DNA of 37,863 nt from Planctomycetaceae bacterium (GTDB lineage Bacteria; Planctomycetota; Planctomycetia; Pirellulales; Pirellulaceae), in NCBI GenBank assembly GCA_002724245.1, contig PBOG01000096.1, positions 11,874 to 49,736 on the forward strand. Direction: 5' to 3'. Each line of letters begins with the position of its first letter. Positions within the stretch are counted from its first letter, which is position 1. The position numbers were made by a program, and so were the translations under genes. Below, in pieces: positions 920-1,474 of this stretch. The notes beneath the pieces are model-generated. The model did not search any database. It had not been told where the DNA came from and saw nothing but the letters and a program-made list of their open reading frames with translations.

Positions 920-1474
920 CTAGGGAAGAATCTTCTTGGTACTGTTGAGGACGATTTTCACTTCCTTGTCACTGAGCTTGCCAGCAGTGTAGGCGTGATT
1001 TGCCTTGACACGAGCTCGCTGCCACATCAACACCGTCTGTTCGGCATCTTTGGCAATCTTATAGGCTGGTGGACCGGCTAAACCATCGAACACCGTCAAT
1101 GGGATGTTCTTGATTTTGTGCTTCTTTGCGAAGGCAGCCAGTTGCTCTTCCCCCTCATCGGGGTCGTCAGTCAGCAGCACGACAAAACTCGCCATCCGCT
1201 CTGACTTGTTCTTGCCAACAACAGCGTCCATTTGTTTGACCAAACTGGTCAATTCGTCGGTGATCTTTCTGGTAAAGATGTTAACCACCGGACGAGAGCC
1301 GTACCGTCAGCGATAGCAAAGGGTCTTACCCTTATTAGGCCCCGTAATATCCTTCACGTTGTAGGCTGTGGCAAAGCCACCAACCTGCAAACCTGATTTA
1401 AAGTCGGCCGCGAATGCAGCAGCGCCTACGGACGCCACCAATACCGCGAGCGACAACACCGTCACTCTCTTCAT
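920..1474 (-). CDS. Exported thioredoxin-like protein with CxxU motif, candidate selenoprotein (in-frame TGA at 1307-1309)
   Basis: An ATG at 1474 with a strong ribosome site (GGAGGG, about 7 nt away) starts MKRVTVLSLAVLVASVGAAAFA, a classical signal peptide. The frame runs 55 codons to TGA (1309-1307) and then continues in the same frame for 128 more codons to TAG at 920. The join reads CYR-TGA-RYGSRPVVNIFTRK. From memory, planctomycete relatives of this exported family read LCYRCKYG followed by a hydrophobic RPVV strand, so the TGA sits exactly where the second Cys of a CxxC redox motif belongs. Reading TGA as selenocysteine gives a 184-residue protein with Cys53 and Sec56. The downstream half alone (GTG at 1288) would lack both the signal peptide and the motif and has no ribosome site. 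Alternatives are a nonsense mutation or a TGC-to-TGA sequencing error. TGA is a normal stop elsewhere in the window (ruvA, for example), so wholesale reassignment is excluded. The product presumably acts in periplasmic thiol redox; its substrate is unknown. Confidence 0.7.
1258..1306 (-). promoter_or_regulatory. Possible SECIS-like stem-loops directly after the in-frame TGA
   Basis: Two foldable elements follow the TGA on the mRNA. The first (1306-1289) is CGG, a bulged U, ACG, loop GCUCU, CGU, CCG. It has the bulged U and a loop-initial G as in the E. coli fdhF element, but starts with no spacer after the UGA. The second (1290-1258) pairs CGGUG with CACCG and AUCUUU with AAAGAU around loop ACCAG, with a 6-nt bulge. 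Its loop begins 34 nt after the UGA, a usual bacterial distance, but lacks a G in the first two loop positions. Neither is canonical, and coding sequence alone can fold this way. Confidence 0.3.

Follow-up and report, generated by a model that had tools for sequence, protein, structure and literature searches.

A probable new CxxU selenoprotein family of Planctomycetota with an unusual, proposed two-hairpin SECIS layout

The window analyzed in the present study is a stretch of 37,863 nucleotides from a Planctomycetaceae bacterium (GCA_002724245.1, contig PBOG01000096.1), the minus strand of which carries, at positions 920-1474, one reading frame that begins with ATG at 1474, ends with the stop codon TAG at 922-920, and contains a single in-frame TGA at 1309-1307 (codon 56). 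When this TGA is read as selenocysteine (Sec), the frame comprises 184 codons and the 184-aa product contains the motif CYRU. The original prediction, made from the sequence alone, described one in-frame TGA in an otherwise intact 184-codon frame, which held, and also claimed a strong ribosome site and a signal peptide. Regarding the former, a Shine-Dalgarno-like GGAGGG is present at 1482-1487, 7 nt 5' of the ATG. The latter, assigned to codons 1-22 (1409-1474), was judged by eye without a predictor: the N-terminus (MKRVTVLSLAVLVASVGAAAFA followed by ADF) resembles a signal peptide, and a hydrophobic stretch also appears by eye to start other family members. The Sec56 codon (1307-1309) was assigned from the sequence and family alignments, and its partner in the CxxU motif, Cys53 (TGC, 1316-1318), is the only other cysteine-type position in the protein. 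Two hairpins follow within the coding region, namely, HP1 at 1254-1295 (+14 to +55, the T of the TGA being 0), which was assigned from the fold of the window and from group statistics, and HP2 at 1236-1252 (+57 to +73), with the sequence TTGACC-AGTTT-GGTCAA. All of these features are on the minus strand, as is an intrinsic-terminator-like hairpin with 15 pairs and a T tail at 852-885, 3' of the gene, which is one of three such sites in the region, whereas shuffles would lead one to expect 1.3.

In its own genome (7.79 Mb, 98.8% complete), the gene is single-copy, with one TGA form and three weak matches; two of the latter (L018 and L019) possess neither cysteine, and the third (L020) was left out of the alignment. 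The downstream neighbor, below approximately position 810 on the same strand, encodes beta-propeller and cytochrome c/MauG-like domains, as detected with Pfam on the L140 copy (L140:5624-7516), and 17 of the 69 loci for which context was available (9 Sec and 8 Cys) carry a same-strand homologue of it in their flanks. Since the terminator-like hairpin follows the window gene, we do not claim an operon with this beta-propeller/cytochrome gene.

Near or distant matches to the protein were found in 48 of 60 relatives (E up to 0.001), 52 of 392 genomes sampled across the phylum and 141 of 241 genomes of the same taxonomic family (both at E up to 1e-10). A collection scan yielded 76 loci, the record titles of which named Planctomycetota taxa apart from four: one MAG, labelled Bacteroidales, accounts for two of these records, and the other two bear no label more precise than 'bacterium'. 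Candidatus Kuenenia, a planctomycete, is the label of two of the 76 loci. The original prediction placed the TGA at the second Cys of a CYRC motif that is CxxC in relatives and proposed an alignment of homologues at this column; this part held, with the column being TGA or Cys in most homologues. In the first sets, 56 of 121 family matches carried TGA at exactly this column, and among 204 pooled matches, the sources of which overlap and are partly redundant, columns 53 and 56 read CC in 112, CU in 82, CS in 2, gaps in 4, DK in 2, RV in 1, and DR in 1; position 53 is thus Cys in all 82 TGA and all 112 Cys matches. The TGA-bearing rows that were examined, which cover only part of the same-family set, contained that TGA alone and no other internal stop. 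Because the same TGA recurs in separate assemblies, a base-calling error is very unlikely.

Selection on the codons 3' of the TGA was also apparent. Between the window gene and L140/L021 (one sequence seen in two collections, 97% protein identity), this part of the gene showed 23 synonymous and 3 non-synonymous changes (pN/pS 0.04). The ratio was 0.10 against L139 (4 changes in all), 0.16 against L022, and 0.40-0.42 against L118 and L146, for which synonymous sites were near saturation. Purifying selection persists beyond the TGA, and the accumulation of further lesions in close strains, which would have refuted the original prediction, was not borne out, with near relatives keeping both the frame and the selection on it. 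The in-frame TGA of the window gene is real and more than a product of chance. In a tree of 175 rows from which codons 50-82 had been excluded, the family switched between Sec and Cys at least 14 times. Some members depart from the common pattern: one (G488:C75:112559-113119) has an in-frame TAG and represents a broken gene or an error, two family members share one locus in the case of L100 (G103:C214), L197, and L198, and a distant member, L112 (G140:C80:160690-161046), has the TGA in a CPVU motif with no HP2 at +57.

The original prediction also called for a search for selA, selB, selD, and a tRNA-Sec with a UCA anticodon, and all four are present in the genome. The tRNA-Sec scored 70 bits, above the Rfam cut-off, and was called SeC(tca) by ARAGORN (anticodon TCA); SelB scored 366.8 bits; SelA (TIGR00474, 542 bits) lies directly downstream of selB at a locus that stops before the end of the gene; and SelD (350.8 bits) contains one in-frame TGA of its own, at ...CAGUAGK.... 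This selD gene (L137, G000:C89:28294-29220) also has a SECIS-like hairpin at the usual distance, CTGCAC-AGGTT-GTGCAG, the AGGTT loop of which lies 31 nt from the selD TGA. The machinery and the selD TGA indicate that the cell is able to make and insert Sec and that another of its genes appears to use it.

Across relatives, Sec forms occur mostly in genomes with Sec machinery. Among the first 60 relatives, 18 genomes had the Sec form, with SelB in 16, tRNA-Sec in 17, and at least one of the two in all 18; the corresponding figure was 18 of 42 for relatives without the Sec form (p 1.0e-5) and 5 of 19 for Cys-only genomes (p 2.4e-6). In a second set, which was picked by the analyst, SelB was found in 29 of 34 Sec genomes (28 above the cut-off) versus 4 of 30 Cys-only genomes (p 7.5e-9). 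The association was incomplete: in the first set, SelB was below the cut-off or absent in 2 of the 18 Sec genomes and tRNA-Sec absent in 1, and in the second set, SelB was absent in 5 of the 34, one more having a sub-cut-off fragment only. Five of the eight Sec genomes lacking a part of the machinery were less than 90% complete, but G004 (99%) and G007 and G638 (91% each) were not.

The SECIS element goes beyond what was originally predicted and represents both the strongest evidence and the most unusual part of the present analysis. When codons were tabulated for 20 Sec and 27 Cys genes, Sec genes favored TTG-GCC-AGT-TTG-GTC-AAG at +57 to +74, with TTG first in 19 of 20 and AGT in 17 of 20, while Cys genes were variable. 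The stretch from +57 to +73 forms a 17-nt hairpin, TTGRCC-AGTYT-GGYCAA, with all six pairs in 64 of 71 distinct Sec stretches and five in another 5; one of the two remaining (L100_1) has the hairpin 3 nt further on, next to a one-codon insertion, and the other, L112, has none. All six pairs were present in 3 and five in 9 of 106 Cys stretches. When a stem of at least 5 of 6 pairs was combined with a stricter loop rule, both were met by 67 of the 71 Sec stretches versus 1 of the 106 Cys stretches. In 67 rows, 98.8% of cells were paired (60% or less in slid structures), 15 cells were changed on both sides versus 1.6 in shuffles (reached in 0 of 500), and three pairs had both-side changes versus 1.2 (reached in 12 of 500). 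RNAalifold recovered HP2 from the Sec rows, and no structure from the 25 Cys rows. HP2 is conserved with compensatory changes almost only in Sec genes.

The energetics of HP2 followed the same division, with a synonymous-shuffle z of -2.61 for 39 Sec genes versus -0.36 for 51 Cys genes. The minimum free energy of the stretch from +54 to +78, as a mean of the 39 Sec genes, was -10.4 kcal/mol, below the upper limit of -7.5 kcal/mol that the canonical bSECIS model sets (PMC13188914); the HP2 of the window was not folded by itself. When folded from +12, 67 of 68 Sec stretches formed HP2, versus 4 of 106 Cys stretches. Among six supported independent pairs, HP2 tracked Sec in five and the opposite in none (sign test p 0.0625), a test that was partly circular because the hairpin state drew on loops from Sec genes. 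An HP2 covariance model, to which the window had itself contributed, matched the window HP2 at 30.3 bits (E 4.5e-6), and among 17 matches in the own genome at E up to 10, the window gene stood out. The next match (20.9 bits) lies in a gene that appears cyclophilin-like by eye, in a frame without TGA, and 6 of the 16 other matches have an upstream TGA with more than 25 open codons on both sides, candidates that were judged by eye without a comparison of homologues. A Cys homologue (TGT) at L080 (G410:C2:22300-22827) keeps the HP2 stem and loop in a genome that retains SelB, and we regard its hairpin as a probable SECIS fossil left by a Sec-to-Cys change.

The HP2 loop, at +63 to +67, is 60 nt from the UGA. 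Bacterial SECIS elements mostly have their apical loop 16-37 nt from the UGA, and some genes do not fit that range, indicating distinct SECIS classes (PMC13188914). In the window, the gap is occupied by HP1, with 11 nt separating it from the UGA and 1 nt from HP2. Compared with synonymous recodings, the stretch from +3 to +57 had extra stability in Sec genes (mean z -1.79, SE 0.19, n 39) and hardly any in Cys genes (mean z -0.39, SE 0.18, n 51); stretches downstream and upstream gave z between -0.16 and +0.29 in both groups. A single hairpin of at least 30 nt over +12 to +56 was found in 66 of 68 Sec stretches versus 45.6 +/- 3.7 in synonymous shuffles, with the same count in Cys genes being 65 of 106 versus 66.1 +/- 4.6. 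At least 8 pairs were present in the HP1 region in 68 of 68 Sec stretches folded from +12, no count having been made for Cys genes. Sec genes carry excess structure in the HP1 region, the evidence for which consists of energies and hairpin counts: RNAalifold returned no consensus HP1 helix, and HP1 pairs vary between species. A 3-bp helix at +9 to +18 appeared besides HP2 in one RNAalifold run and was gone in another. Folding of the window from +3 onward gave HP1 and HP2 at -22.0 kcal/mol; when the TGA itself is included, HP2 is disrupted in the minimum free energy fold, the stability of which is equal (-22.1).

A canonical SECIS at 16-37 nt was considered and rejected. Stem lengths there were similar in Sec and Cys genes, the best in the window had 4 pairs, and no clear excess of fitting hairpins at this distance was found in Sec over Cys genes. 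A search of the window with Rfam at gathering thresholds returned no match, which does not show that a SECIS is absent.

Regarding the protein, the mature part was predicted at pLDDT 96.7 and pTM 0.92 from 65 aligned family members, a model that superseded a poor single-sequence prediction (pLDDT 49.9). Searches with Foldseek and VIA-align returned thioredoxin folds of the TlpA/ResA/DsbE-like and peroxiredoxin types, with a best E of 2.3e-8 and a best Z of 17.1, which places the predicted model in the thioredoxin-fold superfamily. A profile search of PDB sequences gave one match that was not meaningful (E 1.3). CYRC corresponds to model residues 31-34, ahead of the strand at 40-46; the classical CxxC place of thioredoxin and TlpA, at the start of the helix after the core strand, is not occupied by CxxC, the window protein reading RKIT there. 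This correspondence was judged by the order of elements without coordinates. The protein is thus predicted to have a thioredoxin fold in which CxxU is unusually placed, and the two invariant thiol positions, together with the lack of another Cys in the window protein, indicate an intramolecular S-Se pair.

Considering these results, the gene very probably encodes a CxxU selenoprotein, probably exported and predicted to have a thioredoxin fold, with Sec at UGA 56, signaled by a two-hairpin SECIS, as yet without an experiment. In the proposed mechanism, UGA 56 would be decoded as Sec by SelA, SelB, SelD, and tRNA-Sec, and the signal would be the pair of hairpins inside the coding region. The ribosome occludes approximately 11 nt of mRNA in its tunnel (PMC4513850), and HP1, starting 11 nt past the UGA, would begin about where the tunnel ends. 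HP2, with the bacterial SECIS apical loop N1-G-[G/U]-N-N2 in which N1 and N2 pair, is the likely SelB site, and HP1, once folded, would reduce the effective length of the 60-nt gap, bringing SelB and its Sec-tRNA within reach of the A site. Outside the cytoplasm, Cys53 and Sec56 may reversibly form an S-Se bond, by which the protein would serve as a selenol/thiol oxidoreductase. That Sec is incorporated, that SelB binds HP2, that HP1 serves as a spacer, and that the protein is exported and performs redox chemistry are all inferences with no experiment behind them. The original claim of a selenoprotein with Sec at the CxxC motif is supported by the machinery of the genome, the homologue column, and selection.

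Among other explanations, a nonsense mutation or sequencing error in an otherwise CxxC gene may be suggested because TGA is one base from TGC and Cys forms are common in the family; however, TGA occupies the same column in many separate assemblies, purifying selection continues 3' of it, and the RNA hairpin is present almost only in TGA genes, which all but excludes this possibility. The UGA may also encode one of the standard amino acids, with no selenium involved, owing to code reassignment or a suppressor tRNA, and the frame would be open under such a code. This appears very improbable: column 56 in the 122 non-TGA matches is Cys in 112 (Ser and Lys in 2 each, a gap in 4, and Val and Arg in 1 each), the genome holds a full Sec system, a gene of the same genome that is cyclophilin-like by eye terminates at TGA, and the hairpin accompanies the TGA.

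A closer rival accepts Sec and assigns SelB to the proximal HP1 at the usual distance, with HP2 being accessory, for example in ribosome pausing or in stabilizing HP1. HP1 sits where a canonical SECIS would sit, and its stability relative to synonymous recodings is a property of Sec and hardly of Cys genes. On the other hand, HP1 has no consensus pairing across species, perfect stems at 16-37 nt with G in the first two loop positions are of similar length in Cys and Sec genes, and the conserved loop belongs to HP2 and is of the same kind as that of the own selD hairpin. We consider this rival unlikely and retain HP2 as the probable SelB site. A bolder reading, also likely though less secure, is that the element represents a new class of bacterial SECIS, with a displaced SelB hairpin and a variable folded spacer, and that the selenoprotein family using it is new, spans the phylum, and has its redox pair at an unusual position in the thioredoxin fold.

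The present results add a widespread, unnamed selenoprotein family of Planctomycetota, the genes of which ordinary gene calling would truncate at the UGA. Since such a SECIS geometry would go unscored in a search confined to 16-37 nt, other selenoproteins may be missed likewise. The modular layout, a spacer hairpin followed by a minimal hairpin, makes the effects of distance and mRNA folding on Sec insertion directly testable, and the natural Sec/Cys switches together with the hairpin-keeping Cys gene at L080 provide a ready evolutionary series.

The original prediction did not know this family as a described selenoprotein, and we found no such family in the literature or models compared. The window protein matched no Pfam or NCBIfam family above the cut-off and no NCBIfam model at E up to 0.1. 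Among 65 members scanned with a limit of E 0.01, no family matched more than two (best E 0.0013 for Pfam and 0.0038 for NCBIfam), with AhpC-TSA in 2 and Redoxin in 1 among these weak matches. None of the 119 prokaryotic selenoprotein families in Table 1 of PMC13188914 (2026) resembles it, in a comparison by name, motif, domain, and NCBIfam/Pfam models in which sequence comparison did not extend to representatives lacking an NCBIfam model. Neither the family nor a distal two-hairpin bacterial SECIS was described in the open-access literature searched, which also included PMC12013277, PMC1794560, PMC9312934, PMC1242214, and PMC9622424; an earlier listing is possible in the supplementary planctomycete selenoprotein table of PMC4807772, which was outside the search.

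In comparison with known systems, the listed CxxU selenoproteins (SelW-like, AhpD-like, Trx7/PDZ, DUF1858, GrdA, the FCYXU TonB receptor, and others; PMC13188914 Table 1) share the motif, but are named for other domains. The predicted fold is similar to 3gl3_B (Z 17.1, 139 residues, rmsd 2.1), ResA 2h1b_A (Z 16.8, 136 residues, rmsd 2.2), and E. coli Tpx 3hvv (Z 16.6, 146 residues, rmsd 2.6), although at only 12-15% identity, and it differs from TlpA/ResA/DsbE-like proteins and peroxiredoxin/Tpx in that CxxC/U precedes the core strand, while the position following this strand, where a Cys usually stands, has none. HP2 agrees with the bSECIS consensus (PMC13188914) in its stem of 6-7 bp, its loop with N1-N2 pairing, and its location in the coding region 3' of the UGA, while it differs in its distance from the UGA and in the separate hairpin that fills the gap. 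In the selD gene of the same genome, a 6-bp hairpin with a similar loop likewise lies 3' of an in-frame TGA, but within the usual range. Taken together, we regard the gene as belonging to a new selenoprotein family, the SECIS layout of which is unusual.
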